A stretch of DNA of 32,193 nucleotides from Blastocladiella britannica (taxonomy: Eukaryota; Blastocladiomycota; Blastocladiomycetes; Blastocladiales; Blastocladiaceae), in NCBI GenBank assembly GCA_025349905.2, contig MU624678.1, positions 1 through 32,193 on the forward strand. Reading direction: 5' to 3'. Made by a program: the position numbers and the translations under genes. Each line of letters opens with the position of its first letter. Positions within the stretch are counted from its first letter, which is position 1. The notes beneath the pieces were generated by a model. It saw nothing but the letters and a program-made list of their open reading frames with translations. It did not search any database and was not told where the DNA came from. Below, in pieces: positions 1 through 32,193 of this stretch.

Positions 1-109
1 GACCTGACAGCAGAATCAACCTGATTGTACGGATTCGTGGGAAGTGGGCAAAATTTGGCGCCGACTTTGTTTCATTTTTCACGAAAAAGTCAATAGTATG
101 TGTATATTT

Positions 110-3100
110 CTATGTCGTCGCGCTGGGGACAACACAAAAGTCGCCGGCCGCCCCAAACCACGCGAGCGCCGTGGAGCTGCTGTCGCCCAGGTCCGGGTTG
201 AGCAACCAGGTCGGGAACTTTGCGTCCGGGAACGCGTTCATCAGGATCCCGTTGATGACCGTGCCCGTGAGCGCGGTACCGGCATCCAGCGCAGCTGCAA
301 TGATATAGTTGTAGCGTTTCCACTATTGAGATTGGGGGGATGATAATCAAATCAGTCACTTGCGTGTTTCATCATCTCACAGTAGGGAGCTGGGCGTACC
401 AATGGCAAATGATACCGATAAAAGTACACTTGTGAAATCGCGGCCACCGCCAGGCTGGTAATGTAAGTCTGGTTCGATCCGGTGCTCGTCACGCTGAACA
501 GGATCGGCGCCTGGATGTACTTCCATGGGATCGGCCCGTTTGCGAACACCACGTCCAGCGCCTTGAACACCACGGGCGTGAGGGCGCCAATCAGGCCACC
601 GAGCCACAGAAGTGATCCGTACGGTGACGTGGGTCCAAAGAACCGTGCTGGTCCGATTCCTCCATAGATCTTTCATTGAGGAAATGAGTGACCAACTCAG
701 CGCCTTGTAACGGGAAATATGGAAAAGTACCAAGCTCGCGGTGAAAAAAGTGCGGTCTCCCGGGTCGGTCCACTGCGACAGAGTTGCGCCTGGGAACTTG
801 AGTGCCTTTTGGTTCACTGGGTTGGAGTACCAGAGCTCGTTGGTCGCATAGCAAACAATTACGGTGATGATCTGCGAAATGAACTGGGCAGCGAAAATGG
901 CGCGCGGCGGGACTTTAATGCTGTAGGGATTTGAAGTGATTCCGTAAGTCGTTGTTGGTTTCGTTGTGGTCCATTGATTGAAAGTAACGTACTAGTGGCC
1001 GAGCTTGAGATCACTGAGGAGCACTGTAAAAAAAGCTGTGAGAAAACAAATTCAAAGAGGAAAAAGAGAAGAAAACGTACTCGTGCACTGCGTCGCAACC
1101 AGCAACGCAATCGATTTGAAGGCCATGAGCGACAGCGGGTTTCCAGGATCAATGTACCCCCAAACGACCTCGGAAAACACATTCAATCCAATGTCAATGC
1201 CGGTGGTCGCAAACATGAGCGATGACGGAACAGCCGCGATCGAGCCGACCAAGATCGCCAGCGGCACCACCGCAAATGCGAGCAGCGCGCTGGTCTGCAG
1301 CCCCGAGGTCTCGGCGACCGAACTAAAGTCGCTCATCCCACTCAGCGCATTGGCGACCATCAGTCCCACGGCGCTGCCGGTAAACAAGAGCGCGTACACC
1401 CACGTCGGGACCTCTGGGTACTGGTCGATCAAGAGACAATGAATATCGAGGTCCATCTTGTTTTTGTTAACACCGCGGACGCGACGCCAAATGTCGCCGC
1501 CGTACCACACCACCGTGTGCACGATAGCGGCCGGGAACTGCGCAAACGACGTAAAGTAGCTGATGGCGAACGCGGGGGAAATGCGGATCGGCGCGTTGGC
1601 GCCATTGAGCAGGTCCATCCACGTGTTTTGGTCACCCCAGGTGCTGGTGTCGACCGAGGTGCCGTCGGTGTTCATCAGGTTGATCGAGTTGAGCACTTCT
1701 TGGCTCGTGGACTCGTCGTAGAACCAGCCTTGCGACCAGGCGATCGGGGTGATGATCCACACAAAGAATACGGTCCCGGCAAACATGCTAGCGGTCGTCC
1801 ACCATGGAATCTTTTATTTATATTTTGTGTAAGCATAGATTTGAATGAATAATGAAGAAAACATACCGTCATGGCCCATGAGCCAACGTTCGACCAATCG
1901 GTAGTAACTGAGCCGATCCCCACTCCGCTCGAAAACGACCCGAGCGTCTGCCACGTGAGCGTAGACTTGGTGAACGTGCGCTCAGCAACGCACCCAAGCC
2001 CAATGTTGGCGATCCCCGGCGCAATGAACGTCGGAAACAGCTGCCAGACGGCAATCCCTACGGCGGCGACGGTGAACATGCGCATTCGGGACCATGGCTT
2101 TGCGCGCGGAAGCGGCGCGTACGGTGCCGGCTTTTCCAAGGTGCCTGCGTCGATGCTGCTGTTGACGCCGATCGAGTTGGCGTCGACTCCCCAACCAAAC
2201 AGAGCCGAGTACAGGGACACGGTGGGCAGAATGGTGGGCCACACAAACTCGATCGGGCGGACCAGGACCGACCGAAGCATGCCCGCGAGCCCGAAACCGA
2301 TCATCGAGGACGAGAGCAGGAAAAGGATCGCCCAGCCAGGGTTGATCTTGATTTGGAAGTATTGCTCGGTGACGACCAGGTTTGAGATGCCGTATCTGAA
2401 AGATTCGGTGAGTCTCAACCGTACAAAACTTCAAAAAATATGTAAAAGACATACACGCCATAGCCTCCAGTGGATGCGAAAATGCCAATCAGGGTCAGCT
2501 CCTTGACCGAGAACGGACCAGGATTGGTGTCGAACACCCAGCGTGTTCCTGGAACGGTAAAGTGGTAGCTCGGGACGATGCGCTCCATCAAGTTACCGAG
2601 GGGAAACGCGAGCACTGTGGGCACGTAGATCGACACCGAGAATGCGCTGATTTCATATCGCATGTGTCGATTCGTGAGCGACTCATTATTCCATGTCAAA
2701 AACGCAAGTTACAAAAGAATTTGTACCCATTAAAGTAGTAAAACAGCTGGTTGATGGCGGCCATCAAGACACAAAACAGCGTGCCAATGACGACGACGCG
2801 GAACGTGAATGCAGGTGTCTCGGGGTGGTCATGGCGCGGAACAATGTCCTGGATCGCCGACTCAAAGTCCTTGTCCACAATGAACCCCTGGACGCCCGTT
2901 GCCAGCTCGTTCTTGATGGCGATCGGCGAACTGCGCTCGGTCGCATCAGGGGCGCGAATGCCCGCGCGCTCGGGCGACCACACGTGCACGGGCACCTTGT
3001 CGAGCGACGACCCAAACTCGCGCACATCTTGCTGCGACAACTGTTGCTGTTGCTGCTGCTGTTGTTGCTGTGGCTGGCGCTGCAGTTGCTGCTGACGCCG

Positions 3101-3967
3101 GTACGGGTAATACGCCGCTGCCGCCGAAGCAGACCCACCCGACCCGTACGAGCTCGGTAACGCGATCGACGACTCGTCAAAGTACTCGCTTTCGGGCGGC
3201 GGCGACAATGCGCGGTGCGCGATCGATGTCTCAATGTCGCGCTGCTGCTGCTGCGAAGGTGGAGGAGGAACCGGGTACATGCGCGCGGCCTCGGACGTGG
3301 CCGCGGCCATTGCCTCGCGCAGCACCGACGTGTACGCATGCTCGTCAATGGCGTCCAGCGACCCGTGCGGCTGTTGACCCAACTCGTCGTCATCGCCACC
3401 ACCAACGTTTCCAATCACCGAGAACATGGGGGATCCGGGAGGAGGAGGTTGCGATGCCGCCGCCGAGGAGGCCATCAAGTGCGAGTGCCGGGCCAGGAGC
3501 GCCGACTTGGCCGCGTTCGTGGATCCCGGAGAGGTCGGAAGCAAGGGACGTGATCCATTACCGCTACCAGGTGTGATGGGCGATGGAGTAGATGCGGCCG
3601 GCGATGTCAAGCTTTGATAGTTGCTGTTGTGGCCGGAGGCAAGGGAAGTGGCCAAGATGGGAGCCGGGAGGGTTGCATGGAACCGCGATGCGCCGAATCC
3701 GAGGGGCGTGACTGGGCTCGAAGGCCGATTGCGTGACAGTGAACCAAATGGAGAAGTCGGGGAACCGAATCCTCCCAGCGGGGAGGTCGGGCTCATTGGC
3801 TGTTGCTGTTGCTGCTGCTGCAATCTAGGCAGTGAGCCACGGCTGGCGGCGAGGGTGGCGGCCGTCCCAAACACGGTGGACGACCGGCGCCGGGGAGGCT
3901 CGGGCGGGCGATTGGCCGACTGTTGACGCTGCCGCTGTTCCTGCTGGTGCTGGTAGTAAGCGTCCAT
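110..3967 (-). CDS. OPT-family oligopeptide transporter, 8 exons, 1131 aa
   Basis: Proton-coupled importer of small peptides or peptide-like metal chelates, expected in the plasma membrane. Exons on the minus strand: 3967-2727, 2646-2455, 2395-1867, 1810-1081, 1023-993, 920-731, 669-400, 322-110. All junctions keep frame and restore family motifs: NPGPFSVKE near residue 455, IPWW near 655, DLKLGHYIKVPPR across the 31-nt exon (residues 902-914), and GPARFFGPTSPYGSLLW near exon 7. From about residue 385 onward the length (about 745 aa) and many hydrophobic segments match the family. The first 385 residues are an unusual low-complexity extension rich in Gln, Ser, Pro and Ala, including a 10-Gln run. 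The start is the first ATG of the exon-1 frame. Substrate cannot be told from sequence. The family call is firm; exact ends of intron 1 are slightly less so. Confidence 0.93.
3041..3070 (-). repeat. CAG/CAA polyglutamine tract in the OPT N-terminal extension
   Basis: Thirty bases encode ten consecutive glutamines by mixed CAG and CAA codons. Shorter Gln runs lie at about 3241-3255 and 3803-3820 in the same exon. Mixed codons slow slippage compared with a pure repeat. The tract belongs to the cytosolic N-terminal extension, not the transport domain. Confidence 0.9.
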
Positions 3968-4337: not shown

Positions 4338-7300
4338 TTACTCCTCGAGATCGTCGGGCATCTCGACCTGCTCGAACGAGATATCCGACGACGCGTCGGA
4401 CGAGTCATCATCGCTCGCCTGCTCCTCCTCCTCTACCTCGACAGCGTCGACGGGAGTAACAACGGCATCGACAACCGCCGGCTGCTCCGACATGCCCAAC
4501 TCGACGGGAGCAATGGCGGCAATCAGCGGCGGCGGAAACGCGGCCGGGATCGGCGACGCGGGACGAAGCAGCGGCGCAATCATGTCGTCCGCGGCTGCCA
4601 GCGCCGTCGTGGGTGTGATCGGCACCACCACCGAGATCTCGTCCTCGGCCTCGGGCACATCCTCCACTGTGGCCTCGGGGACGGAAACCGGCGCCGTCAC
4701 AGGCGCCACAGTGTCGTCCGCCGCCAACGACAAGGACGGGGCGGCCGCCGCAATTCCGGCCCAGAACCCAGAAGGAGTGGCGCGGGGGAACTGGACCTCG
4801 CTGGCCGCGTCCGACGACTGGTAGTCTGCCGCCAGCGAGCCGCTAACCTCGAGCGGCGTCACCGCCTGCAGCGCGCCGGGAAAGGTGCCAGGCACACTCA
4901 CAAGCGAGTCAATACCAGCCGACGACGACGAGGACGATGAAGCAACCGACGAAGAAGAAGCGGGCTTGGGGACAATCACGGGGTACTTGATAAAGTCAGA
5001 AAGCGACCGTTCGGCCGTCAGCGGCGACTGGGGCACCGCCCACGCGGGAGCGTAGTCGACCTGGAACTCGCACCACACGCGCGGGCCAAACTTGGTCACA
5101 TTGGCATGCTCGCCCATGGCCACCACCTTGTCCGGGAACGACCCATCCGCCGACGACGGCACCGCCAGGCGCCAGTAGCTCGTGACCGTGCGGCCAGTGC
5201 CCGCCGCCGCCGATTCGGACAGCTCGGGCGCCACCATCGGCACCCGCAGCATCGTCTCGCTGCCGGGGCTCACCTCGCCCACCGACACGGCGCGGTACAT
5301 GTCTCCCGGCTCGGGCGCACCCGAGAGGTAGACCAGGAGCGTGTTCCAGGGCCACGCGGTGGTGCCCGTGTTGCGCAGGAGCCACGATGCCTGCACCTCC
5401 GATCCGGGCGATACAACACCGGCAGCCGAGTCATCCTGCAGCACCTCCTGGCGGACGAGCAGCGCACGGAGCGCCGGGGGCTTGTTGTTGTTGTTGTTGT
5501 TGTTGTTAATGGCGGCAACGGGAGTCGCAACGACAGCTGGCGCCGACTCGGTCGGGGGCACGGCGGCTGCAATGATCGACACAATCGGGTCCTCCTCCTG
5601 CAGCACCACCTCGGCTGGGGGCACTGCGGAAGCAATGATGGCGGCAATGGGGTCGACGAGCGGCGCAACCGCATTGGTCGGCGACTTGGGCGCCTCTTGC
5701 ACGACGGGCGACGACGGGTTGGTCGAGCGCGTCGTCGGCACCGTGTTAAAGTGGCAGTGCACAGCCGCTGGGGGCGTCGACGGAGCAGCTGCAGCTGCAG
5801 CGGGAGTGGGAACGGCTACCGAGACATCAATCATGGGCGTCGACACCACCAGGCGGCTCGCCAGCGGCTCTGTGATCTGCACGAAAATGTGGCCGTCGTC
5901 GTGCTTGTCCATCGTGTCCTTGTTGCCCATGCACGCCTCGCAGAAATCAAAGTTGGGGCACATGGCGCACTTGTAGCGGCGGCCCACAATGGGGTTCACG
6001 GGGCACCCGTCGCACGCGACAGCAGCGTGCGTCTTGGGACCGGTGGTGGCCGAGCGGGAACGCGGGAGCGGGCCCGACGCCGTCAGCGAGACCGACTCGA
6101 GAAGCGCCGACTGCACCGGGTCGCGCAGCACCAAAAACATGTGGTCGAGCGGGTGGAACTTGGCGGCCGGCAGCTTGTCGTTGCACTTTTCGCACAGGTC
6201 ATAGTCGGCGCACGCGCCCGCGCACTTGTAGCGGATGCCGCGAATCGGGCCAGAGCAGTGGTCGCAGTACACGTGCGGGTGCAGCTTGGCCAGCTTTACG
6301 ATCGGAGCCTTGGCGGCGGCGGTCTTGGCCGAGTGGGCGCGGGTGCGCGCAGCGAGCTTGGACGCCGGCAGGACCACCGACGGGCCCTCGCGAAGCGGGC
6401 CCTTGAACACGGCAAACGCGTGCTTGCCGCCACAGTGCGAGCCAGCCTCCTCGATGCAGTTCGAGCACAGATCAAAGTCCGAGCAGCCCGAGATGCAGCT
6501 ATTTTTTACAATTGATTGAGTTCTTTTTTTTGTTCTTGTTTTGAAAAAAGAGATAAGAAAAGCGTACCGGTGACGCAGGCCAGAGATCGGGTGGTTGCAC
6601 ATATCGCACACGGCATTGTGGGCAAACCGCGGCGTGATGATCGGCAGGGCCGAGTCGGCGGCGGCGGCGGCGCGAAGGTCACGCAGACGCTCAGCAGCCC
6701 GGGCGGCAACCGAGGCCGGATCCGCGGCGGTCGGTTGCTGCTGCTGTTGCTGGGTAGCAGAAGCCTTGGCGCGCGTTGCCGCCACGACCGCAGCGCGGGC
6801 AGCCTCCATCAGGGCGCGGGTGGTGCCGGTGCTGGCGGCACGCGACTCCTGCTGCTGCGGTTTCTTGGGCGCATGCATGACAAATGCGCCGGGCAGGTCC
6901 GCGGTCGCAACGGGAATGGCCGACGGCACCATCGTGTATCGCTGGGTCGGCTGGATCGGGGCCGTGGGGTAGGTCGAGCGCGTGGTGCTGGTCGACACGG
7001 TGGTGGACGCCGGGACGGCCGCTTGGGTGGCCGACGACACGGTGGTGCCCGAGTGCGACGTGGTCAGCGTGGCCTGGTGGGTGCGCGCCTGGACGGGGAC
7101 CGCGGCCTCCGCCTTCTTCTTGAGCGCCAGCTCGAACGTCAGCGAGACAGAGATCTGGATCGGCGGGTGGGTGTGGCCGTGGTGCGGCGGGTAGTGCGGC
7201 GGGAAGCCATGGCCGGGGGGGAAGCAGTGGCCGTGGCCGCCGGGGTGGTGACCGAACGGGTGCTTGTTGAAGGGCGGGTGCGGGAAAGCACTGCTGCCGA

Positions 7301-8195
7301 CACCGTCCGCCATCGCCATGGGATGATGCGGCGACGGATGAGCACCGCCACCACCGCCATACCCGCCGTGCGCGGCCCGGGCGCCGTGCGTGTTGACCCA
7401 CACGGCCTCGTCGAGGTCATCCTGCGTCTCAATGAGCACCTTGTCGCCGTGGAACTCGGGGTGCACCAGCGTGTACTTGGCGGGGTCCTCGGGGGCGCCA
7501 ATCACCGAGTGGATCGCCTTCTGCAGATCGCCAATGGCGATCGAGGGGAGCCAGTGGTGGGCGGCCGAGCTGCTGATGAAGTCCTCCTCGGAACCGTTCT
7601 CGGGCGGCGGGTAGGTCTTGGTGGCCGAGATGGCGAACCGACGGGTCTGCTCAAAGTCCGGGGCGCGCACCTTGAAGTGGCCTGTCGTACTTAAAGGTGA
7701 GTCATCAGGCGGACACCATGAAAAAAATATGAAGAAAAATAATCGAGTACCAGTCAGAACGACCGTCACTTTCGGGTGGTCCTTGCCGTGATCCGGACCC
7801 GGCGGCGGCGGGGCTTGCGACGAGAGGTAAGGGTAGCGCTGCGCAGAAGAAGTGGAAGCGTCCTTGTTGAACACCTGGGTGGGAGCCACAAACGCAAACT
7901 GGGCCGGACCACCACTCGACGACGCCGACGCCGCTGAAGCCGCCGCCGCAGTGGGCTGGACGAACGGCGGGGGACCCATCTGCTGGTGACGAGTGTGGTA
8001 CGGGTGCGACGAGAACTGCGTGTACTGGGTGCTGGCGTCAAACTCGGGCCCGGCCGACGCCATCACCGACGGCGACGACCGGCGCGATGCCAGCAGGTCC
8101 GAGATCCGATCCTCAAACGACGGCACCGCGTACGGCGGGTTGCCCGTCACGGGACGGAGGGGGAAGGACCCAGGCGGACTGGGGTGACTGGACAT
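4338..8195 (-). CDS. NBR1: NBR1-type selective autophagy receptor, 3 exons, 1239 aa
   Basis: Cargo receptor linking ubiquitinated or vacuolar-enzyme cargo to autophagy or ESCRT routes. Exons 8195-7751, 7681-6568, 6498-4338. Domains in the spliced protein: PB1 about 142-245 (opens KVTVVLTGHFKV, closes with the acidic segment QDDLDEAVW); His-rich linker 263-322; ZZ fingers near 505-555, 596-650 and 680-730 (each starts CxxC and has the YDLC or FDFC pair); Asn run; FW/NBR1 domain about 861-1007 (WLLRNTGTTAWPW, SYWRLA, VWCEFQVDY); then a disordered acidic tail ending with an LIR-like FEQV at 1228-1231. Start chosen at 8195 because the next upstream in-frame triplet is TTG. The PB1, three ZZ and FW order is diagnostic of NBR1. 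No UBA domain is visible at the C terminus. Confidence 0.92.
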   Translation of the reverse strand: MSSHPSPPGSFPLRPVTGNPPYAVPSFEDRISDLLASRRSSPSVMASAGPEFDASTQYTQFSSHPYHTRHQQMGPPPFVQPTAAAASAASASSSGGPAQFAFVAPTQVFNKDASTSSAQRYPYLSSQAPPPPGPDHGKDHPKVTVVLTGTRLFFFIFFSWCPPDDSPLSTTGHFKVRAPDFEQTRRFAISATKTYPPPENGSEEDFISSSAAHHWLPSIAIGDLQKAIHSVIGAPEDPAKYTLVHPEFHGDKVLIETQDDLDEAVWVNTHGARAAHGGYGGGGGAHPSPHHPMAMADGVGSSAFPHPPFNKHPFGHHPGGHGHCFPPGHGFPPHYPPHHGHTHPPIQISVSLTFELALKKKAEAAVPVQARTHQATLTTSHSGTTVSSATQAAVPASTTVSTSTTRSTYPTAPIQPTQRYTMVPSAIPVATADLPGAFVMHAPKKPQQQESRAASTGTTRALMEAARAAVVAATRAKASATQQQQQQPTAADPASVAARAAERLRDLRAAAAADSALPIITPRFAHNAVCDMCNHPISGLRHRYAFLISFFKTRTKKRTQSIVKNSCISGCSDFDLCSNCIEEAGSHCGGKHAFAVFKGPLREGPSVVLPASKLAARTRAHSAKTAAAKAPIVKLAKLHPHVYCDHCSGPIRGIRYKCAGACADYDLCEKCNDKLPAAKFHPLDHMFLVLRDPVQSALLESVSLTASGPLPRSRSATTGPKTHAAVACDGCPVNPIVGRRYKCAMCPNFDFCEACMGNKDTMDKHDDGHIFVQITEPLASRLVVSTPMIDVSVAVPTPAAAAAAPSTPPAAVHCHFNTVPTTRSTNPSSPVVQEAPKSPTNAVAPLVDPIAAIIASAVPPAEVVLQEEDPIVSIIAAAVPPTESAPAVVATPVAAINNNNNNNNKPPALRALLVRQEVLQDDSAAGVVSPGSEVQASWLLRNTGTTAWPWNTLLVYLSGAPEPGDMYRAVSVGEVSPGSETMLRVPMVAPELSESAAAGTGRTVTSYWRLAVPSSADGSFPDKVVAMGEHANVTKFGPRVWCEFQVDYAPAWAVPQSPLTAERSLSDFIKYPVIVPKPASSSSVASSSSSSSAGIDSLVSVPGTFPGALQAVTPLEVSGSLAADYQSSDAASEVQFPRATPSGFWAGIAAAAPSLSLAADDTVAPVTAPVSVPEATVEDVPEAEDEISVVVPITPTTALAAADDMIAPLLRPASPIPAAFPPPLIAAIAPVELGMSEQPAVVDAVVTPVDAVEVEEEEQASDDDSSDASSDISFEQVEMPDDLEE
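5482..5508 (-). repeat. (AAC)n polyasparagine tract in NBR1
   Basis: A pure trinucleotide run reads TTG on the plus strand and encodes eight asparagines in a row just before the FW domain of NBR1. As a perfect repeat it is likely to vary in length between strains. Confidence 0.9.
6499..6567 (-). other. NBR1 intron 2: 69 nt, stop-free, in frame, inside ZZ1
   Basis: Donor GTACGC and acceptor ATAG restore the zinc finger segment GLRHRCISGCSDFDLC. Like intron 1 it is 69 nt and has no stop. Retention would place 23 residues between the first and second cysteine groups of ZZ1 and probably break the finger. Confidence 0.85.
7161..7340 (-). repeat. His/Pro/Gly-rich segment between PB1 and ZZ1 of NBR1
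   Basis: Sixty residues (263-322 of the spliced protein) contain 15 histidines, mostly as HH, HGH and HTH groups separated by Pro, Gly and aromatic residues. It is low-complexity and probably disordered. His-rich tracts often bind Zn, Ni or Cu, but no such role is known to me for NBR1. Confidence 0.85.
7682..7750 (-). other. NBR1 intron 1: 69 nt, stop-free, in frame, inside PB1
   Basis: Donor GTACTC and acceptor ACAG join ACT-G to GC-CAC, giving the continuous PB1 strand VVLTGHFKV. The intron is a multiple of three with no in-frame stop, so an unspliced transcript would encode 23 extra residues rich in Phe within the first PB1 strand. Confidence 0.85.
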
Positions 8196-8746: not shown

Positions 8747-11632
8747 TCAGCGAGCCCGGAGCGACAAGAGCAGCATGGCAGTGGTGCGCGGATCGTCCTC
8801 GGTGCCGCGCGGTTCATCACCTACAACAACAGCGACATCCTCGCCGCTGCCCCCTCCTTGTGGACATGAACGCTGCTTCTGCTCCAACCCAATCGCGTCC
8901 GACAAGCACGACGCGCGGCGCGGCGCAGAGACGGGCCACATGCTCGCGGTCTCGACGGACCGCTGGTCGCTGCCGCTGCTGGACGTCGCGTCGCGCGAGA
9001 AGGAATACAGTTGCGCATGATTCTGCTGCCGTTCGGCTTCACCAGTCTCTGCTTCATAGCCATCTGCGGCGATGCTGAAGCTGCCAGTATCACCATCGTC
9101 CTGGTCCGAGTCTTGATCGATCTCCGAGTCCGCGTCGGTGCCGTCACTGACCGCCCCCGGAATGCTGTGGCGCATCGAGTCCGACTCGGTCCGCTTGTAC
9201 AGTCCCAACGCCGAGTACGGTGCGCCAGGCGGGACCTGTCCATGCGTCGCCCCTGCCCGCGAATCGGCCGAGGTGCGCTGCAGTGCCGCCAGCCGCTCAA
9301 TGGTGGTGCGATCTTCCTCCGACACGTCCGGGAACGTGGGCGAGACGGGCGACCGCGCGGCGAACGGCGACAGAGAGATGGATCCGACCAAGAGCGGGCC
9401 GGAGAGCGCGCGGCGGCGCGGCGATAGCGGCAGAGGCGAGGGCGTTGGGTACAGCATCAGCGATGAAGAAGCGGCCGATGACGGCGGCGACGGCTGGGGC
9501 AGGTACGGCATTGGCGAGTGCGCGCGGAACCACCCGGACACGCCCCGCGCGGCGGTGGCGACGCTGGCGCCCGATACGCGGCGCTTGCGCTGCTTGACGG
9601 ACGACGGGGGGTCCTGGTGGTCGTTGGCGTCGAGGTGGAACGCATGGTGCGGGTAGGGCGGCAAGTAATACTGCTGGTGAGACTGGTGGCGCGGGTGGTG
9701 GTGATCGACATGGTGCCCGCGCGCGGCCGACCAGTCCCCGTGAATCGGCGACAGCACCGGCGAGTTGGTGGTGGCCGTCGACGACGCTGGGGTGGGAGCA
9801 TAGAATGCCGAGGCCTCGATGCGCGACGACCGGCGCTGAGAGTTGGCCGACGGAGCTGCTGCAGGCGCACTGGATGTCGATCCGCGCCGCCGCTTCGAGT
9901 TGGGCGTCTCTTGTCTTGCCGCGGACAAGGTGCTGGAGCGGCGCGCGCGAACGCCCGATCCATTTGCTGTTTCCCCGTCGCCGCGCGCCTCCTTCGATTC
10001 TTGGTCACTGGAGGCGTCCCGCAGTCGCTTTTGCGCCGTCGTCGAGCCCGACCGGATGCTTCCGCGTCTTCTCCGGTTCCCATTTGGCGGAATCGGGTCG
10101 CTCTGCTCAACAAAAGTCGTCAGTCGTTTCTAGTGAAAAGATGAAGAAAAAAAAAAAAAAAAATGGAAATGGTACCTCAGGATGCAGCAGATTCTGTGCA
10201 AGCGATGTCTCATAGTCTGAAATTCCAGCAGCGGGCATCACCCGAGCGGCGGCATTGGGTTTGCGCCGAGGCCGCGCAATGGGACCTTCATATGCCTGGA
10301 TATCAAATGGAGGTTAGAGCCACGGATCAACGAATACCAAATGAAAGGAGGACGCACGGAATTGTAGTAATAGAAGTGGTTGACGCGAATCAACACGGAT
10401 CGCTTCATACTTTTCTTGAGCGCCTGGGTCGCCGACGGCTTAAAGAACGGCGGCAGCTTGTCGCGATACTTTTCCTCCATGCGCGCGTAAATGGCCTGCG
10501 GCTTGAGTCCGCCCACCAGCGGCTGCACGCTGCCGCCCTCGGGTGCCGGCGGTTCGGTACACATTTCGGGCGGGGCCGTGCACAGCGCCTCGATGATCAG
10601 CTCCTCGTACGACGGCAGCCGATCAGTCATGTCCAAGACCATAGACGAGTTGTACATGGCCGAATCCTCGTCGTCCTCGCCCTCGTCGTCACCACCGGCG
10701 GTCTGCGCCGCGGGGCGATATGGCGACGGGATAGCGGCGCGTGATGATCGTGGGACGGGCTCGACCGCGGCTGCCATCGGCGGCGATTGGTGGCGCGAGG
10801 GCACCAGGTACTCGCGTTGGTGCTGGGACTGGCGAGAGCCCAGCAACAGCGCCGGAGAGTTGGCGAGCGATCCGGGCCGCGATCCTCCCGCCAGGGACGT
10901 CAGAGACGGGTGCAGAGACGAGTCGTCGCCGTCCATCAGTTCGGACTGCCAGTAGCGATCGTCGGCCTGGGCAGAGACATGCGGGTTGGCGATGCGCGGG
11001 CTAAAATGCTGTGGGGGCACAGGCAGCGGCGGGGCAGGTGGGAGAAATACTGCAGGCTGGTGGTGGTGGTGGTGGCGGTTGTAGTGGTGGTGGTGTTGGG
11101 AGGCATATTGGTGGTGAGAATGGTGGGGTTGGTGGTAGAATTGTGGGTGGTGGGGGTGGTGGAGATAGTCGCCGTTACCGTCGACGGGCGGTCGTGCAAT
11201 AAAAGTGGGGCTCGAAAGAAAAGTGGCGGCATCAGCGGCATCAGCAGCGGAAGGGGAGTCAAGCGAAGAAGGATAGTAGCTTTGGTGTGGCTGGTTGTAG
11301 TAAATTGGGTGCGACTGTGGACCACCGCCGCCCCCGCCAGACATCAGGGATGGGTCGGGGAGAACAGGCCGTGCGACCGGATCGTGGGACTGGAATAGGT
11401 GGTGGGGTAGGCGGCGGCGCTGAGAGGTCGTTGTGGTGGTGGGGTGCTCAGCGACTTGGTGCTCAGCGGCCTCTTCTGTAGAGGTTGTCGCCATCAAGCC
11501 AGTATCAATGCTCGAGTCGCACTCGGTCGAAAATGCCGGACGCATTCCAGTCAAAGTCAGATTAGTATCAGCATTCGCGTCTTCCGGGCCGAGGGCGCCC
11601 GGCGGTGGCGGACTTGGCAAAGTCGTCGTCAT
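8747..11632 (-). CDS. Large disordered protein with linker-histone-like winged helix, 3 exons, 925 aa
   Basis: Exons 11632-10358, 10295-10176, 10129-8747; all junctions are phase 0. The only folded-looking region is about residues 335-425. It opens with LPSYEELIIEAL, continues GLKPQAIYARMEEKYRDKLP, then ALKKSMKRSVLIRVNHFYYY. The spacing of SYEELI, an xAIxxxxEEKY helix, a Lys-rich ALKK helix and a terminal beta hairpin resembles the H15 winged helix of linker histones, with an insertion after the first helix. The rest is Pro, Ser, His and Ala rich, with basic KRRR and RKRR clusters (possible nuclear signals) and many SP sites. A chromatin or DNA-binding role is inferred, not shown. The ATG at 11632 is the first in frame; upstream in-frame codons include TTG only. 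Confidence 0.8.
10147..10163. repeat. A17 homopolymer (T17 in the intron sense strand)
   Basis: Seventeen consecutive A on the plus strand sit in the 46-nt second intron of the H15-domain gene. On the transcribed sense strand this is a long polypyrimidine tract ahead of the CTAG acceptor. Confidence 0.9.
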
Positions 11633-22309: not shown

Positions 22310-23382
22310 ATGTCAAACCTTCCATGCATTTGCAACCCGGCGTTCGTAACGATTAGCGGCGCGAACTACCCATACTCTCAGTTCTTTGGAACCATCCTTG
22401 GCGAGTGTGTGTACTCTCCTCGGCAATTTGCGGCCGAGATCATTGGTCTGCTCTCCATTGTTGGATTTGCCGTTTCGTTTGTTCCCCAGGTGTGGCACTC
22501 GTACCAGCGCAAGTCGGTCCAGGGATTGACGTTTTCCTTCTTTTTGCTTCTTGCTGGTGCGTCCCTTGCATTTTTTGGAAATTGTATATTTACAGTGTGA
22601 AACAAACAAAAATAGCCGGTGATATGGTGACTCTCCTTGGCACTTTCCTTACGCAGCAGTTCGCAACGCAAAAGTGGCTCGCGGTCTTGTTTGGTGTCGA
22701 GTCGGTGATCTTGGGCGTCCAGTTCACGTACTACAGCATGATCTACCCACGCCTGGTCCAGTGGCAAAAGTCGCGGAATGCAGCACACACCGTCCCTCAA
22801 ACCGACTCGTCTCAAGAAGCGCTGGCCGCTTCTTCTCAGCAACCGCAATCAGGACCGCAGACGGTGTCGATGGCCGCGTCGTTGATTCCTATGGCCCTCG
22901 CGGCTGGCGTAGCGCTGGCTCGCCGCGCTGTCTCTTCGCCCACTGCCACTTCGATTCTGACCACCATGTCAGCGCTGGAATCCGCACCGCTCTGCGACGC
23001 GACGCCCGAACTGTCGGTTGCAGCGCACACCGCCGGCTGGGTGACCGCATGGATCAGTGCCGGGATCTTCTTGGTCAGTCGCATTGGTCAGATCCGCACC
23101 AACTACAAGCTGAAATCGTCGGCGGGCATGTCGCTATGGTTTGTGCTGATGCTGTTTTCCAGCAACGTCATGTACTCGTTGTCGGTGCTACTCCGGATCG
23201 ACGAGGTGAGTACTACCAAGTTGTTGGAGGGAACGTTGCCGTTTGCAATTGGTGGAGTGGCCGCGGTGCTGCAGGACGGGATCTTGGTCACGCAGTGGGT
23301 CATGTACCATAAGAACACGGCGGCCGTGCTTGATGACGAGGAGGTTGAGGTGGACGAAGAGGATGACGAGAAGAAGGAATAA
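22310..23382 (+). CDS. PQ-loop repeat transporter (SLC66/YPQ-like), paralog 1, 337 aa
   Basis: Seven-helix transporter family moving cationic amino acids out of the vacuole or lysosome. Exons 22310-22556 and 22616-23382. An N-terminal CICNP segment precedes the first PQ motif, FVPQVWHSYQRKS, with PQ at residues 59-60. The second repeat reads SRIGQIRTNYKLKSSAG with Gly-Gln at 240-241 instead of Pro-Gln. The linker between repeats is Gln/Ser rich and the C terminus is a strongly acidic tail. The splice restores AAGDMVTLLG. A tandem paralog starts 349 bp downstream on the same strand with the same exon layout. Vacuolar location and substrate are inferred from the family. Confidence 0.92.
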
Positions 23383-23730: not shown

Positions 23731-24846
23731 ATGTCTTCATCCGATATTCCATGCATCTGCAACCCCGCATCGTTGGTGATTGATGGTATCGACTACCCGT
23801 ACTCGCAGCTGTGGGGCAGTGCGCTCGGCGAGTGCATTTACACGCCACGGCAGACCGCCTCCGAGATCATTGGCCTTGCATCGATTGCTGGATACGCGGT
23901 CGCATTCCTGCCGCAAGTATGGCACTCGTACCAACGCAAGTCGGTTGAGGGGTTTACATTTTCCTTCTTTGTGATGTTTGCAGGTATGCTACCTTTTATT
24001 GTGTGGATCCGAGTTTAGTCTCACTGTTTTTTTTTCACTACAGCTGGCGACATGGTCACTCTCCTCGGCGCATTTCTCACTCAGCAGTTTGCCACACAGA
24101 GGTGGCTGGCAGTGCTCTTTGCCGTTGAATCGGTGATCCTCGGCGTGCAGTTTGCGTACTACAACTTGGTGTACCCGCGGCTGGAGCGGCGGCGGCAGTT
24201 GCGGACTGCAGATGATGATGCAGCGACCAGTAGTGCGGAATCGGCGCTGGTATCGCAGCCACCACCACCACAGACCGTCTCGCTTGCCGCCTCGTTGATC
24301 CCCATGGCGATCGCGGCAGGTGTGGCCCTAGCTCGTCGTGCCGCCAGCTCATCGACTGCAGCAGCAACAGCAGCAACAGTCTTGACACTGGCATCTGCTC
24401 CAATCTGTGATGCGACGCCCGAACTGTCCCCGGCGGCCCACACCGCCGGCTGGGTGACGGCGTGGCTCAGCGCGGCCATTTTCCTGGTGAGCCGGTTCGG
24501 CCAGATCCGCACCAACTACAAGACCAAGTCGTCGACGGGTGTTTCGCCATGGTTCATTTTCATGCTGTTCTTCAACAACGTGCTGTACATGGTGTCGGTG
24601 CTGCTTCGGATCGACGAGGTTAGCGCGACTAAGATGATCGAGGGCACGTTGCCGTTCTTGCTGGGCAGCGCGGGCCCGATTGCACAGGACGCGGTGCTGC
24701 TGGTGCAGTGGTTCATGTACCGCAAGAACACGGTGGTGCCGGTTGCGGATCAGAATGGCGAAGAAGAGAGCGATAGTGATTTGGACGAGGATGAGGAGGG
24801 ACGCGTACAAAAAAAGCGGCCGATGTCGTCGTCGTCCTCGTCTTGA
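23731..24846 (+). CDS. PQ-loop repeat transporter (SLC66/YPQ-like), paralog 2, 351 aa
   Basis: Tandem duplicate of the preceding gene. Exons 23731-23983 and 24044-24846; the intron interrupts the same Ala codon at the same phase as in paralog 1. First motif FLPQVWHSYQRKS; second SRFGQIRTNYKTKSSTG, again GQ. Blocks such as QVWHSYQRKSV, LTQQFATQ, WLAVLF and HTAGWVTAW are shared, whereas the linkers differ (Ala/Thr-rich here) and the acidic C-terminal tail ends in a run of serines. This pattern indicates an old duplication under constraint in the membrane helices, with both copies intact. Function is inferred from the family. Confidence 0.92.
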
Positions 24847-25012: not shown

Positions 25013-26762
25013 ATGCCGCCGAAAGCCGCCGCCGCCGCCGCCGCCGCCAACAACGAGGTTGCCAATGCCGCCCGTTTCGGTCGTGTCCGCAACAACTTGA
25101 AGGTACTTTTTTTCTTGGTCGATCAACAACAAGTACCTCACACTGACTCTATACTCCATGTACAGATGGGTGTCGTCGGCCTGCCCAATGTCGGGTATGC
25201 ATCAATTATGCTCTACATATAAATGGTCAACACCGACCAAAAATATAATACACAGCAAATCGTCGCTCTTCAACCTGCTCACCGAGCAAGCCGCCGCGGC
25301 CGAGAACTACCCGTTCTGCACCATTGAGCCCAACGAGGCGCGCTGCGCGGTGCCCGACGACCGCTACGAGCACCTGTGCTCGCTGTGGAAGCCGCCGTCG
25401 TGCTACCCGGCCTTCCTGTTTGTCACCGACATTGCCGGCCTCATCAAGGGCGCGTCGGAGGGCCAGGGCCTCGGGAACGCTTTCCTGTCGCACATTCAGG
25501 CCGTGGACGGCATTTACCACGTTGTCCGGTATTGTCGTCTATTTTTCGTTTCCTTGGTTGTTGATCTCATTGGCAATATCAATACACAGCGCCTTCGAGA
25601 ACGACGACGTGATCCACGTCGACGACTCGGTGGACCCCGTCCGCGACTTGGAGACCATCCAGGCCGAGCTGTGCAAGAAGGCACGGTTAACTTTTTTTTT
25701 TCTGTGTCGCTATTGACACTTTGTTACTGACCCTTTAACGCTAAACAGGATCTGGAGATTGTCGAAAAGGCCATGGCCGCCGAGGAGCTGGCGACTCGCA
25801 AGACTGCTGGCAAGTTCAAGCTGTCGCCCCTGTTCAACGACACCATGGCCAAGCTCAAGACCGTCCGTTATTCTTTGATTTTTTTTTTCCTCTGGATGGA
25901 GTCAAAAACTTATATCTTCGATACAGATGCTCTCCGAGAGCAAGCCCGTTCGCAACGGCGAGTGGACCACCTCGGAGGTGGAGCTGATCAACGAGAAGGT
26001 GCATTTTATCGAATTTTTCTTTAATGGATTCGACCGACGCTGACAAAATAACACATAGCTCGTCCTGATCACCACTAAGCCCGTCATTTACTTGGTCAAC
26101 ATGGACCAGAAGGACTACATTCGCAAGAAGAACAAGTGGCTGCTCAAGGTACATTTCTCTCTTTTTTTTTACGTTCACTTCCTGAATCCCTCACTCACAA
26201 ATTGGTTAAAAATTGATAAAGATCCACAACTGGATCCAGGCCCACGGCGGCGGCACCATGATCCCGTTCTCGGTTGAATTCGAGCAGGCGGTGTGGGACA
26301 AGCGCGAGGACCCCGTGGCCCTCGAGGCGTTCTACAAGGAGGTGGGCGCGGTGTCGACGCTGCCCAAGATCATCAAGACCGGCTACGCGGCCCTGGATCT
26401 GATCTACTATTTCACCGCCGGTGAGAAGGAGGTCCGCTGCTGGACCGTCCGTCGCGGCGCCCTTGCGCCCCAGGCAGCCGGTGTCATTCACACTGACTTG
26501 TTCGTTATCATCCTTTTTTGATGACGTTTACAAGTCAAAACTCACATACCCCTCCCAAATATATAACAGCGAAAAGGCCTTTATCAAGGGCGAGGTGTGT
26601 GCGTATGAGGACTTCAAGGCGCTGTGCAACGGCCAAAAGTCGATGGCTCCCATCAAGGCCGCCGGCAAGTACCGCCAGGAGGGCAAGACGTACGTTGTCC
26701 AGGACGGTGACATTATCTACTGGCAGATTGGTACGATCCAGAAGGTTGTTGCCAAGAAGTAA
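25013..26762 (+). CDS. OLA1: OLA1/YchF Obg-like ATPase, 9 exons, 409 aa
   Basis: Cytosolic P-loop NTPase of the Obg family that prefers ATP and is linked to ribosomes, translation and stress response. Exons 25013-25102, 25166-25194, 25256-25528, 25590-25680, 25749-25862, 25927-25998, 26059-26148, 26222-26499, 26570-26762. The G1 motif GLPNVGKS (35-42) spans the 29-nt exon 2. G3 is [17 protein letters not shown]. The G4 position reads [14 protein letters not shown] at 237-250. The TGS domain fills the C-terminal 85 residues ([23 protein letters not shown]). Length matches yeast and human homologs. A poly-Ala stretch after MPPKA replaces the usual short N terminus. Eight introns are many for a fungal gene of this size; intron 4 needs a GC donor. 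Confidence 0.97.
25681..25748 (+). other. OLA1 intron 4: GC-AG intron
   Basis: The frame and conserved junction (ELCKK then DLEIVEK) require phase-0 joining of AAG|GCACGG to the acceptor AACAG|GAT. The nearest GT donors (GTGCAA upstream, GTTAAC downstream) would shift the frame. This makes a 68-nt intron with a GC donor, the only one among 33 here. Confidence 0.75.
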
Positions 26763-26767: not shown

Positions 26768-26828
26768 GACAAGTATTGCGTCGTTGTACATTCTGCCTTC
26801 GAAAGAAATACAACCCAAAAAAAAAGAT

Positions 26829-28944
26829 TTAGTGCATGTCGTCGTGGGGATCGCCCTCCTGCTGTGGCGCCGCGAGCTTGATCATGTCGTCGATACGCAG
26901 CACCGAGATGGCGGCCTCGGTCGCGGCCTTGAGCGACTTGATCTTGGACATTGCCGGCTCCAAGACGCCCGCCTTGGCATTGTCGCGCACCTCGCCCTTG
27001 ATCAGGTCCAGGCCCGTGGTCTTGAGCGCGCGCTTGGCCTCGGACGCTCCGGGCTTTTGCGACACCGCGTGGTACGCCAGCAGCTTGGCCACCAGGTCCG
27101 TCGAGTCCTTGGCGGCATTGACCGCCAGCTGCTTGGGGATCACCAGCAGCGCCTGCGCAAACTCGGCGATCGCGAGCTGCTCGCGGGTCGACTAATGATA
27201 TGTTTTTTTCTTTGAGTTGTCAACATCAAGGCAAATAAAATCAAAAAAAAAAACAATGAGAAAACGAACCAAAGTCGTGGCAAAGTTCTCCAGGTACACG
27301 GCCAGCGCGGCCTCGACGGCGCCACCGCCGGGCACCACAGCGCCGGACTCGAGCGTGCGCTTGACGACGCACAGCGAGTCGTGCAGCGACCGCTCCATCT
27401 CGTCGAGCATGTAGTCGTTGGCGCCGCGCAAGATGATGGACGCCGCCGACACGCTCTTGGTGCCGCGGATCATGATCAGTTCGTCGTCCGAGATGCGCTG
27501 CTGGCTGACCGATTCGGCCTGGCCCAGGAAGCTCGCCTCGAACGTCTCCTCGCCCTCGAGGTTAGCCAGCGACGAAATCATGGTGGCGCCGGTCGCCTTG
27601 GCAATGCGCTTCATGTCGTCCTTGGTGACCCGACGCACCGCCATCGCGCCCTTGTCGACAAAGTACTTGAGGCACATGTCGTCAATGCCCTTGGTCGTCA
27701 GCACCACGTTGGCGCCCGACGCCAGGATCTTGGCAATGCGCTCGGCGGTGATGTCCGACTCGCGGGCGCGGATCGCCTCCAGCTGCGTTGGGTCGTCCAC
27801 AATCACGTGCACGCCAAGGTGCATGCGCGCCTTCATCAGGTTCATGTCGAGGCACGCAATCTTGGCGCCGACAATCTTGGTGGGCATGGCTATCGTGTTT
27901 TTGCATGAGTATTCGAGTATGAAATAAAGTCAATAAATAAAGAAAAAAAAGTACCCTGTGAGGCGATCGTGCAGTTGAGCGCGTAGCCATTGACAAACAT
28001 CGACTCCTTGGCCGACTTGCCGTGTGCCTTGAGCACGTTGACGGCCTTGACCGGGTACTTTGTCTCGCCACGGGCGTTGGTGTTCTTGACCGCGAGCATA
28101 GCGTCCACGACCATGTTAGCAAAGAACGTGTCATCGGGCCCAATGATCTTGGAGCTCATGGACGTCTTGGCGGCGTTGATCAGGCACTCGCGGCCCAGCT
28201 GGTCGACGCGCATCGACATCGACTCGGTGATGTACTTGCACGCCTCGCGCACCGCCAGACGGTAGCCCGTGATGATGGTGGTCGGGTGGATCTTGTTCTT
28301 GACCAGCTCGTTGGCGCGCTTCAGCAGCTCGGCGGCCACAATCACCACCGACGTGGTGCCGTCGCCCACCTCCTTGTCCTGCTGCTGCGCCAGCTCCACC
28401 AGAACCTTGGCGGCCGGGTGCTCAACCTCCAGCAGACGCAGGATCGTGGCGCCGTCGTTGGTGATGGTCACGTCGCCGACCTCGTCCACCAGCATCTTGT
28501 CGAGGCCCACGGGGCCCAGCGACGTCTTAACAATGTTGGCAATCGAGCATGCCGCGAGGACTGTTTTTTTTTTGTTCATATTGATCGCACCATATAATAA
28601 AATACAGTAAGGCGGCGGTGAAAACGCGACCAGAAACCAGCAGGCAGGACGTGGACGGTTGGTTGGTTGATCAGAGGCGTTGTTGTTGTTATTTTGTAGT
28701 TGTCGAATACGCGCGCAGACCAAAGCGTGCATGCATGCATGCGTGGACGGACGGACGAGGACGTGACAGCAGCGTATATGGAAATATAAGGAATAGAATA
28801 TGGGCGGCCAGTCAGTCTCAATGCAAGTGCATATATTGGTCGCCAATAAGTAAAATAATACGGACCGTTCTGCGACCGAATATCCTGGCCCGAAGTACGC
28901 TCGCCACCAATGCTAAGTGCGGTTTGGTCTTTGGAGGGCGCCAT
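26829..28944 (-). CDS. TCP1: TCP1, CCT/TRiC chaperonin subunit alpha, 4 exons, 555 aa
   Basis: Subunit of the cytosolic group II chaperonin folding actin, tubulin and WD40 proteins. Exons 28944-28866, 28560-27955, 27889-27270, 27191-26829. The first exon codes for [14 protein letters not shown], the alpha-type N terminus, and joins to [19 protein letters not shown] after a 305-nt intron. Chaperonin signatures: [25 protein letters not shown] at 92-97, GGGAVEAAL. Alpha-specific segments include [13 protein letters not shown] and [17 protein letters not shown]. The C-terminal tail is short and acidic (GDPHDDMH). The ATG at 28944 is preferred because the conserved start is upstream of the long intron. 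It is convergent with OLA1 and divergent from ADE5,7. Confidence 0.97.
28561..28865 (-). other. TCP1 intron 1: 305 nt, by far the longest in the window
   Basis: Donor GTCCGT joins to acceptor ACAG, keeping QN-V-LAACS in frame. The intron holds GCATGC repeats (28729-28742), a GGAC tandem run next to it, and an AAC-rich tract (plus-strand GTTGTT at about 28679-28690). No C/D or H/ACA snoRNA boxes could be placed with confidence. Confidence 0.85.
28729..28742. repeat. GCAT tandem repeat forming a self-complementary tract
   Basis: GCATGCATGCATGC is a perfect inverted and direct repeat (3.5 GCAT units) within the first intron of TCP1, followed at once by GGACGGACGGAC. Confidence 0.9.
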
Positions 28945-29225
28945 ATGGTTGATCAGCGCAAAAGAAAAAAAAATACGAATAAATACTTTCAAAGAAGCGC
29001 GCAGCAGAAGGTGAGAAAGTCGTGAAAAGTGCTAAAAACCTACTAGGTCACGTCAAGTATATTTTAGTTGGCTACTTGCTGATTAGCGTTAGCGGCTGTT
29101 TTCGGGTCCGGAAATCTCGCACGGCGGCACCCGGGCTCGCGCTCCTCGTATATAAAGGCACTACACGACCCACCCCTGCTGCCACTCCTCCAAGCGACCA
29201 TATCTCCCTCAGAAATTTTAAAAGA
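28945..29225. promoter_or_regulatory. Shared divergent promoter of TCP1 and ADE5,7
   Basis: 281 bp between the two start codons. TATATAAA at 29149-29156 faces ADE5,7, about 70 bp before its ATG. TCACGTCA at 29048-29055 is one base from a CRE/ATF palindrome (TGACGTCA). No clear TATA box faces TCP1. Element functions are inferred from motif shape only. Confidence 0.6.
29149..29156 (+). promoter_or_regulatory. TATA box of ADE5,7
   Basis: TATATAAA followed by GG lies about 70 bp upstream of the ADE5,7 start codon in a GC-rich setting, the clearest core promoter element in the window. Confidence 0.65.
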
Positions 29226-31743
29226 ATGGTCTTTACCCCGGACCCATTCGCCATCTTGCTGGTCGGCTCGGGCGGCCGCGAGCACGCTCTGGCCGCCAAG
29301 CTTGCCGAGTCGGATCGGGTCACGCGCATCCTGGTTGCCCCCGGAAACGCCGGCACCGCGTCCGTGCACGCCAAGGTCACGAACGTGCCCGAGATCAAGG
29401 ACTCGATGACCGACGAGCTCGTGCAGCTGGCGATCAAGGAGCAGGTGCGTTGGCGATTTTTTTTTAGTGAGATGAAGGAACGAGACTGATCCAGTTCGAT
29501 GACATTCAGATCGGCCTCGTCGTGGTCGGCCCCGAGGTCCCATTAGTGCACGGCCTGGCCGACAAGTGCGCTCGTGGTACGTTTTTTTACATTGACTTGC
29601 CCACATTGACAACTTCTCAAAAAAAAAAGCTGGCATCCCATGCTTTGGCCCCTCAAAGTATGCAGCGCAGCTCGAGGGCTCCAAGGTCTTTGCCAAGAAC
29701 TTTATGCAGGCGCACGGCATTCCGACCGCAGGCTTTGCGACATTTACCGACGCGGCCGCCGCGATCCGGTACATTGAGTCGACGCCGTACCCGCGGGTGG
29801 TGGTAAAGGCGTCGGGTTTGGCTGCCGGTAAAGGCGTGATTGTTCCCGAGACGAAAGCGGAGGCGATTGCGGCCGTGCGCGAGATGATGGAGTCCAAGGC
29901 ATTTGGCGATGCCGCCAACGAGATTGTTGTCGAGGAGTTCATGGCCGGCGAGGAGCTGTCGCTGCTGGTGCTCTCGGACGGCCACTCGATCCACATTCTG
30001 CCCGGCGCGCAGGACCACAAGCGGCTGCTGGACGGCGACGTGGGGCCCAACACGGGCGGCATGGGCGCGTACGCTCCCGCCCCCATTGGCACCGCGGCTG
30101 TGCTGGCCACCGCCCGCACCACCATTCTCCAGCCCACGATCGACGCCATGCGCCGGTCCGGCCACCCGTTCGTCGGCGTGCTGTACGCGGGCCTGATGGT
30201 CGAGGGCTCGCGCGTGCGCGTGGTCGAGTTCAATGTGCGGCTCGGCGACCCCGAGACCCAGGTGGTGCTGCCGCTGGTCGACGGCGACTTGGCGGTGGCC
30301 ATGCTGGCCGCCACGCGCGGGTGCCTTGATGCGGTCCCACTGGCGGCGCGCAAGGACGCGTTCGCGTGCACGGTGGTGGCGGCATCGGCGGGGTACCCGG
30401 GCAAGGTCGAGACGGGCGTCGAGATTTCGCTGTCGGGCGATGCCGCTCCTGGTGCCTCCAAGGACGTGCACGTGTTCCACGCTGGCACACGGATCGGCCG
30501 CAGCTGCGGCAAGCTCAAGACCAACGGTGGTCGCGTGCTGGCCGTCACGGGCGTGGCCACGGGCTCGCTGCGCGCGGCCGTCGACCGTGCTTACTCGGCT
30601 CTGCGGTCTGGCGTCAAGTTTGAGGGCATGCAATACCGCTCGGACATTGCCCACCGGGCCCTGGCCGCTCCCGCAACGGGTGCCGCCGCTGGTGCCTCGT
30701 ACGCGGCGGCTGGTGTGTCGATTGATGCTGGCAACGAGCTGGTGGACCGCATCAAGCCGGTGGTGCGCGCCACCAAGCGCGCCGGATCGGACGCGGTGAT
30801 CGGCGGGTTTGGCGGGCTCTTTGACTTGTCAGCGGCGGGTTACAACTCGGGCGACGTGCTGTTGGTGTCGGCGACCGACGGCGTTGGAACCAAGCTCAAG
30901 GTGGCGCTGGCGGCCGGCGTGCACGACACAATCGGGATTGACCTGGTGGCCATGAACGTCAACGACCTGGTGGTGCAAGGCGCCGAGCCGCTGGTGTTCC
31001 TCGACTACTACGCGACGGGCAAGCTCGACGTGGACGTGGCGGCCGACGTGGTCAAAGGGATTGCCGCTGGGTGCCTGGACGCCGGGTGCGCGCTGGTCGG
31101 CGGCGAGACAGCTGAAATGCCGTCCATGTACGCTCCGGGAGACTACGATGTGGCCGGGTTCACGGTCGGCGCGGTGCTCCGGTCGCAGGTGCTGCCGCGC
31201 ATGGAGCTGATGCAGCCCGGCGACATTGTGCTGGCGCTGCCGTCGTCGGGCGTGCACTCGAACGGGTATTCGCTGGTGCGCCACATTGTCGAAAAGTCGG
31301 CAGGGCTCGCGTACTCGGACCCGTGCCCGTGGGACGCGTCGGCCAAGTCGATCGCGCACGCGCTGCTGGAACCGACCAAGATTTACGTCAAGCCGCTGCT
31401 TCCGGCCGTGCGTTCGGGCAAGATCAAGGGCCTCGCGCACATCACGGGCGGCGGGTTCCCCGAGAACATTCCGCGAGTGCTGCCTGATCACTTGGGGATT
31501 GCCATTGACGCGCGCACTTGGACGCTGCCGCCAGTGTTCCAGTGGCTGCGCAAGGCTGGGAACGTGGCCGGGCCCGAGATGCTGCGTACCTTCAACTGCG
31601 GGATTGGCATGGTCATGGTCGTAGCGCCCGAGGACGTGGACGCGGTGACGGCCATGATCACGGGCGACACGGTGCTGCGCATTGGCGAGATCACCAGCTG
31701 GACTAAGGGCCACGGCGAGCAGGTTGTGGTCAGCCACTTTTGA
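29226..31743 (+). CDS. ADE5,7: Bifunctional GARS-AIRS purine enzyme, 3 exons, 804 aa
   Basis: Catalyses two steps of de novo purine synthesis: phosphoribosylamine-glycine ligase (GARS) and phosphoribosylformylglycinamidine cyclo-ligase (AIRS). Exons 29226-29444, 29495-29576, 29630-31743. GARS: N-terminal [46 protein letters not shown], then the ATP-grasp segments [18 protein letters not shown] and [20 protein letters not shown] starts near residue 460: [47 protein letters not shown]. The length equals yeast Ade5,7 (about 800) and there is no GART domain, the fungal arrangement. Introns cluster in the first 400 bp and are the shortest in the window (50 and 53 nt). A TATA box lies about 70 bp upstream. 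Confidence 0.98.
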
Positions 31744-31957
31744 GTCGTGGGCATTGGGCGTGCTGGTGTCGTGAATACACATATTTTTTAAATCAAATGT
31801 TGTTGGATCACAGCACAAGGCTGAGTGGGCTTTGAAGTTTCCATCTCACCGGCGATCTCGTCCGCTATGCGGGCGCTACACCAATTGTGCGACTGGTGCA
31901 GCAGAGAGTGGAAACCGTTTTTGGCTCCGGGAAAGAAAAGGGGGAAAAAAACAACAA

Positions 31958-32193
31958 CTACGGCGACGCGGCCGCCTTGGCTGCCGCCGTCTCGGCCGCC
32001 ATGATCTTGGCCACTGACTTCGCCTTTTGCGCGTCAGCCCGCGCGCCAACAAGGCTCTCTACCGCGGCGACCAGCTTGGGGTCCCACGCCACACCCGCCT
32101 CCGCCACCGCACGCATCCGTCGGGTCGCCCACTCGTGGTACAGACTGCACCAGGCCATGTTGGCCTCGGATTTGCCTTTCCAACCAGCGAGCT
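31958..32193 (-). CDS. 3' end of an unidentified gene (partial)
   Basis: The last 77 codons of a minus-strand reading frame that is open to the window edge and stops at 31958. It reads GWKGKSEANMAWCSLYHEW, then an Arg/Ala helix, then a Lys/Ala-rich C-terminal helix ending KAAASP. An internal ATG exists at 32158, but the frame is open upstream, so the true start is probably outside. It is convergent with ADE5,7, 214 bp away. I do not recognise the family; composition suggests a soluble, helical C terminus. Confidence 0.55.
   Translation of the reverse strand, partial: LAGWKGKSEANMAWCSLYHEWATRRMRAVAEAGVAWDPKLVAAVESLVGARADAQKAKSVAKIMAAETAAAKAAASP

Follow-up and report, generated by a model that had tools for sequence, protein, structure and literature searches.

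Why do the introns of one stretch of fungal DNA carry C or T, and almost never A, at position +4 of their 5′ splice sites (donors)? The stretch, called the window here, is the whole of positions 1 to 32,193 (32,193 nucleotides, nt; forward strand) of contig MU624678.1 of the water fungus Blastocladiella britannica (Blastocladiomycota; assembly GCA_025349905.2), and an earlier note made from its letters alone had listed 33 introns, none with the A of the standard GTRAGT donor. In the duplex between U1 small nuclear RNA (snRNA) and the 5′ splice site, position 5 of U1 faces donor position +4. We found that both U1 genes detected in the genome carry G at this position, and we propose, with a probability of roughly 0.88, that the U-to-G change of U1 (from AUACUUACCU to AUACGUACCU), together with a genome-wide shift of the donors to G|GUACGU, explains the C or T at +4. 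U1, rather than U6 or the methyltransferase METTL16, is the most probable cause, and the change looks like a natural compensatory swap between U1 and the 5′ splice site, a new variant of a known interaction.

A gene finder that was trained solely on this DNA, was given GT/AG only and learned the donor motif by itself placed 35 introns in the window, with C in 24, T in 9, G in 1 and A in 1 at +4. Three of these rows were dropped, one was replaced and one GC-AG intron was added, leaving 33. The sole +4A intron (4341-4187) was dropped because its donor overlaps the GAGGAGTAA stop of the NBR1-like frame, while the sole +4G intron (8765-8623) and a +4T intron (8608-8411) are bridges of 143 nt and 198 nt that fuse two genes. 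Another +4T intron (28720-28561) was replaced by 28865-28561 (GTCCGT), which restores RSQN-VLAACSIANIVK, as in CCT1 sequences. In the final set +4 is C in 26 introns and T in 7, with no A and no G, and +5 is G in 22 of 33, which reproduces the figures of the earlier note exactly. At random GT sites of the same DNA +4 is A in 320 of 2000, against which 0 A in 33 introns has P = 0.003.

Sixteen of the 33 junctions (12 with C and 4 with T at +4) are supported by spliced proteins equal to deposited B. britannica proteins (ADE1 2, OPT transporter 7, OLA1 7 of 8), though in principle a junction could be displaced and still yield an identical spliced protein. The remaining 17 junctions rest on frame, homology or the gene-finder model. 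A bare “never A” in the window depends on the editing of the list, while the 16 junctions with deposited proteins do not depend on it. The claim that +4 is never A holds for the edited window set (0 of 33), but it should read “almost never” for the genome, as A is found in 6 of 163 introns outside the window.

The genome contains 15.26 Mb in 624 contigs, and donors were sampled from the window plus the initial 10 kb of each of 20 contigs, 232 kb in total. With the first settings the gene finder bridged genes (357 introns; +4 C132, G103, T81, A41), and the intron penalty was tightened to 9 or 12 for runs with no learned motif and set to 11 for the learned-motif and decoy runs. When the motif was learned from a uniform start, 198 introns resulted (+4 C121, T65, A7, G5), and a start from GTRAGT reached the same endpoint with 182 introns (C109, T59, A9, G5). 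Most of the 198 introns (169) are 50-95 nt long, and C or T is found at +4 in 164 of these 169 (C107, T57, G3, A2); GTACGT occurs 23 times among them, GTAAGT and GTGAGT 0 times each. Outside the window, the 163 introns have C97, T56, A6 and G4 at +4, and the 138 of 50-95 nt have C83, T50, G3 and A2. At the 2000 random GT sites +4 is G in 686, C in 640, T in 354 and A in 320, thus base composition does not yield 107 C with 3 G in 169. In a separate learning run with one scheme, GT donors carried 2.34 bits over +3 to +6, compared with 0.20-0.51 for the decoys GA, CT, TG, GC and CA, and 156 of 187 GT introns were 50-80 nt long, compared with 42 to 77 of 169-207 decoy introns.

Ten introns on other contigs were anchored by hand or by homologues (RPS5 2, CFAP58-like gene 1, SNRNP27K 1, METTL16 6), and all of them have C (6) or T (4) at +4. 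Several candidates were left out here: four model introns on the U1 loci, namely one with a +4A donor (GTTAAATT) that overlies the stop codon of RPS5, one with GTGCCA, and two with GTGCGC within the U1 genes; single unverified introns with GTATGT (locus L006) and GTACAT (locus L007); and a first SNRNP27K intron placed by eye, across which the frame is open and whose chosen donor was one base off. A donor motif did not stand out when raw hexamers enriched upstream of branch-like motifs were examined.

Two U1 genes, on contigs C374 and C561, were detected by a whole-genome search with the Rfam U1 model (E = 6.4e-10), in which the best 41 of 234 candidates were scored. Both start with AUACGUACCU, compared with AUACUUACCU for the Rfam consensus; position 5 is the only one of the ten initial positions that departs from the consensus. 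The earlier note had hinted at altered U6, U1 or U6-methylation machinery and named the U1 5′ end as a place to look. The U1 part of that proposal is supported, with both genes altered at the very base that faces +4, and the U6 part is not supported, as the U6 box is intact. What we take to be the SL1 loop, the U1A-type loop and an Sm-like site are visible in the U1 alignment, and the RNA folds better than 200 of 200 shuffles (z = -4.0). The pattern ATACNTACCT followed by GATCA within 10-25 bases, with position 5 left open, gave four hits in the whole genome, none with T; two of them are the U1 genes above, and the other two (one with G, one with C at position 5) were set aside because their loci match no Rfam family.

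The U1 copies share without a difference 81 bases upstream and 321 bases from there on, at least 402 bases in all (1-402 of locus L002; 1420-1821 of locus L003), and the identical stretch reaches the end of C374 and comes within 11 bases of the end of C561. Their other flanks are different, with genes that we assume to be RPS5 in one case and CFAP58-like in the other. This stretch suggests a repeat that broke the assembly, possibly with more U1 copies. A ACCTCGCC(C)AAACTC-like box lies about 20-40 bases upstream of both U1 genes and both U2 genes (loci L028 and L029), and it is a candidate snRNA promoter element.

With G at position 5, +4C pairs, +4U wobbles, and +4A and +4G do not pair, and the observed order is C, T, then nearly none. 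Compensatory change is seen on both sides of the duplex, with G at U1 position 5 and C or T at the facing donor position in 164 of 169. The mean duplex energy of the 169 donors is -7.36 kcal/mol for G5, compared with -4.79 for A5, -3.99 for C5 and -3.84 for U5; for 600 random GT sites it is -3.72 kcal/mol for G5, compared with -2.34, -2.31 and -2.22 for the other bases. In a fixed register, none of the other three bases does better than the native U1 base at positions 3-10 (narrowly so at 10), but this does not hold at positions 1 and 2, which is expected if pairing spans about -2 to +6. In addition, +3A is commoner in +4T donors (47 of 57) than in +4C donors (63 of 107; P = 0.003), and this also holds for introns predicted with no learned donor motif (34 of 43 and 45 of 83; P = 0.007), as expected if nearby pairing offsets a wobble.

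These data suggest a mechanism. The two U1 genes would be expressed and would be the only ones. The U1 transcript would start with AUACGUACC, compared with AUACUUACC for normal U1, and its G5 would form a Watson-Crick pair with +4C, a wobble with +4U and a mismatch with the usual +4A. Across the genome the donor consensus has shifted to G|GUACGU, which complements the changed U1 end exactly; U1 and donors would have changed together, with G5 pairing selecting the sites. The route may have led via +4U, which is used by yeasts with ordinary U1 and which wobbles with G5. After U1 has departed, +4C should face A43 of U6 as a mismatch, so that here U1, not U6, would set the +4 preference. We consider it quite likely, if less so than the U1 explanation itself, that the only functional U1 has G5, that the whole intron set stands at G|GUACGU, and that +4 is set by U1 against the mismatch with U6 A43; in that case a free-living eukaryote would have recoded its U1/5′ splice-site interaction naturally and across the genome, perhaps along with other members of a Blastocladiomycota clade.

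Some results weigh against the U1 explanation. G5 is also the best base for random GT sites, where its lead on the runner-up is 1.4 kcal/mol, compared with 2.6 for the 169 donors, thus part of the energy gain is general. G at -1 is likewise commoner in +4T donors (P = 0.014), but this difference is gone in the set with no learned motif (P = 0.43), and between +4T and +4C donors +5G has no effect and +6T goes in the opposite direction (P = 0.04 and 0.13). The +4 pattern is weaker when no donor motif is learned: 170 introns have C89, T49, G18 and A14 (the 144 of 50-95 nt among them C83, T43, G10 and A8), and a looser penalty gives 224 introns with C109, T56, G34 and A25. Both U1 copies score 47.1 bits against RF00003 (full-length match 1-166, E about 1e-9), below the gathering cut-off of 69.5 bits, and we still read them as U1. 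Their 5′ end is read from the gene DNA. Finally, both copies lie at contig ends within the identical stretch of at least 402 bases, so a further U1 with a normal end may be missing from the assembly, and this is the main doubt.

The position of both copies at contig ends would also suit the explanation that they are pseudogenes or minor variants, with the normal main U1 absent from the assembly and +4C coming from composition or other factors; variant U1 genes exist in human. We regard this as improbable. The loci have a good U1 fold and a promoter-like box, a chance mutation would have to strike the single base that restores pairing to the observed donor, and the composition at random GT sites does not give the C and G counts seen in the introns.

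Equally improbable is that a loss or change of the U6 N6-methyladenosine (m6A) made by METTL16, or of SNRNP27K, made the demand for A at +4 less strict, as happened in budding yeasts, with the U1 change being incidental. Absence of METTL16 and SNRNP27K is linked to a switch from +4A to +4U (PMC10581693), and +4T is indeed found in 7 of 33 window donors. Loss of METTL16-type methylation was the part favoured by the earlier note, and it is not supported. The U6 ACAGAGA box is normal, and the genome has one Methyltransf_10 match, a METTL16 homologue on the minus strand of locus L006. After splicing by hand, this homologue carries the NPPF motif, and residues 33-316 align, across all six junctions, with U6 m6A methyltransferases of solved structure at E = 1.5e-40. 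Psilocybin synthase scores slightly better than these enzymes and is its best solved-structure match, so that the homologue is a putative METTL16 orthologue. For SNRNP27K the family hit is weak (23.7 bits, compared with a cut-off of 23.1; positions 2-20 of 56), which leaves some room for this explanation, but the SNRNP27K-like sequence (MMGFGGFDSTK ... KYRQYMN) runs on across an intron and, compared by eye, resembles the human protein; SNRNP27K is therefore probably present. Loss of METTL16 or SNRNP27K was rejected as the cause. Moreover, C dominates at +4, and C and U6 A43 do not form a standard pair, and the yeast analogy drawn by the earlier note is tied to +4U, not +4C (PMC10581693).

Changes in U6, U2 or U5 were also rejected as the cause because their recognition boxes are intact: besides the U6 box, the U5 loop and GUAGUA in both U2 copies are unchanged. 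The branch-site motif near the 3′ end looks like CTCAC/CTGAC rather than CTAAC in the 169 introns (window and loci L008-L027), with YTGAY in 83 introns, YTCAY in 81 and YTAAY in 27, where shuffled sequences lead one to expect 27, 40 and 52, respectively, and this unusual motif coexists with the normal U2 GUAGUA.

That the introns are misplaced and the true donors are GTRAGT is extremely unlikely, since 16 of 33 junctions reproduce deposited proteins and learning started from GTRAGT abandons it, with neither GTAAGT nor GTGAGT among the 169 donors.

The U1 explanation can be compared with known systems. In the canonical one, U1 ACUUACC pairs with GGURAGU in the same register, with U at U1 position 5 (pseudouridine in human and S. 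cerevisiae; PMC10581693) and A at +4, whereas B. britannica has G at position 5 and C or U at +4. U1 genes engineered to suppress mutations of 5′ splice sites (Zhuang and Weiner 1986, cited in PMC11732430) likewise use a compensatory U1 base that restores pairing to the altered donor; they are artificial and serve one donor, while the case here is natural and genome-wide. A fungal change of +4 preference is also described for Saccharomycotina, where switches from +4A to +4U track METTL16 and SNRNP27K with U1 ACUUACC and U6 ACAGA invariant (PMC10581693), whereas B. britannica has a changed U1 together with a METTL16 homologue and, probably, SNRNP27K. As described in that work (Parker et al. 2023), U1 candidates were found in 227 of 230 Saccharomycotina and 9 of 10 outgroups with ACUUACC invariant, and a U1 change was named as a possibility with none among the 236 species with U1 candidates (PMC10581693). 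In Cyanidioschyzon merolae the snRNA base facing +4 is changed too, but in U6 (central A of ACAGA to U; cited in PMC10581693) and in the absence of a U1 gene (cited in PMC11732430), whereas the U6 box is normal and U1 changed here. The diplonemid S. specki also has a natural change of the U1 5′ end, in a second U1 gene that carries a run of C and accompanies the normal one (PMC12621601); in B. britannica both U1 genes found are changed and the donor consensus is shifted. Elsewhere, U1 of Giardia is reported to retain ACUUAC though donors do not fully match it (PMC3510501), and the larvacean Fritillaria borealis, with 95% non-GT/AG introns, to keep the U1 5′ end strictly (PMC13326754). For the relative B. 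emersonii, 105 retained introns were reported, most of 60-79 nt and 102 with GT/AG ends, and the term “U1 snRNA” occurs 0 times in the main text of that splicing paper (PMC2773782). By title and abstract, no natural genome-wide U1/donor swap was found among the papers listed in searches of open-licence literature, with subscription papers mostly outside this scope.

Few stretches of RNA in eukaryotes are as conserved as the 5′ end of U1, because so many introns must match it. A lineage with both partners changed shows that the lock between U1 and donors can be recut, and it offers a natural test of the long-standing question whether U1 or U6 pairing fixes the donor consensus, as here each demands a different +4 base. 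In B. britannica, introns may escape gene finders built around GTRAGT.

The 33 introns of the window fall into the following genes; the interval given with a gene, coding sequence apart, is the one that its introns span. On the minus strand, the OPT oligopeptide transporter (coding sequence 110-3967) has seven introns spanning 323-2726: 2726-2647 (GTACAA), 2454-2396 (GTATGT), 1866-1811 (GTATGT), 1080-1024 (GTACGT), 992-921 (GTACGT), 730-670 (GTACTT) and 399-323 (GTACGC); its spliced protein is identical to deposited P0241 (1131 amino acids). The NBR1-like gene (6499-7750, minus strand), with ZZ and N_BRCA1_IG domains, contains introns 7750-7682 (GTACTC) and 6567-6499 (GTACGC), and a gene without Pfam match (10103-10357, minus strand) contains 10357-10296 (GTGCGT) and 10175-10103 (GTACCA), placed by frame and coding model only. 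On the plus strand, the SUV3 helicase (14185-15351) has introns 14185-14261 (GTCCGT), 14865-14927 (GTATCG) and 15289-15351 (GTATGC), followed by the ECM29 homologue (17469-20377) with 17469-17529 (GTACGT), 17699-17767 (GTACCT), 18407-18476 (GTACGT) and 20309-20377 (GTACGT). PQ-loop protein 1 (22557-22615, GTGCGT) and a second, similar PQ-loop-like protein outside the Pfam scan (23984-24043, GTATGC) have one intron each, both on the plus strand.

OLA1, a YchF-like ATPase on the plus strand, has eight introns spanning 25103-26569: 25103-25165 (GTACTT), 25195-25255 (GTATGC), 25529-25589 (GTATTG), 25681-25748 (GCACGG), 25863-25926 (GTCCGT), 25999-26058 (GTGCAT), 26149-26221 (GTACAT) and 26500-26569 (GTTCGT). 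The C-terminal part of its spliced protein equals the whole of deposited P0121 (379 amino acids) and covers all introns except the first. Intron 25681-25748 is of the GC-AG type, also with C at +4; it was placed by eye and agrees with the deposited protein. The TCP-1 family chaperonin (27192-28865, minus strand), which we take to be CCT1, has introns 28865-28561 (GTCCGT, 305 nt), 27954-27890 (GTACTT) and 27269-27192 (GTTCGT). Finally, ADE1 (GARS-AIRS; 29445-29629, plus strand) contains introns 29445-29509 (GTGCGT) and 29577-29629 (GTACGT), and its spliced protein is identical to deposited P0001.

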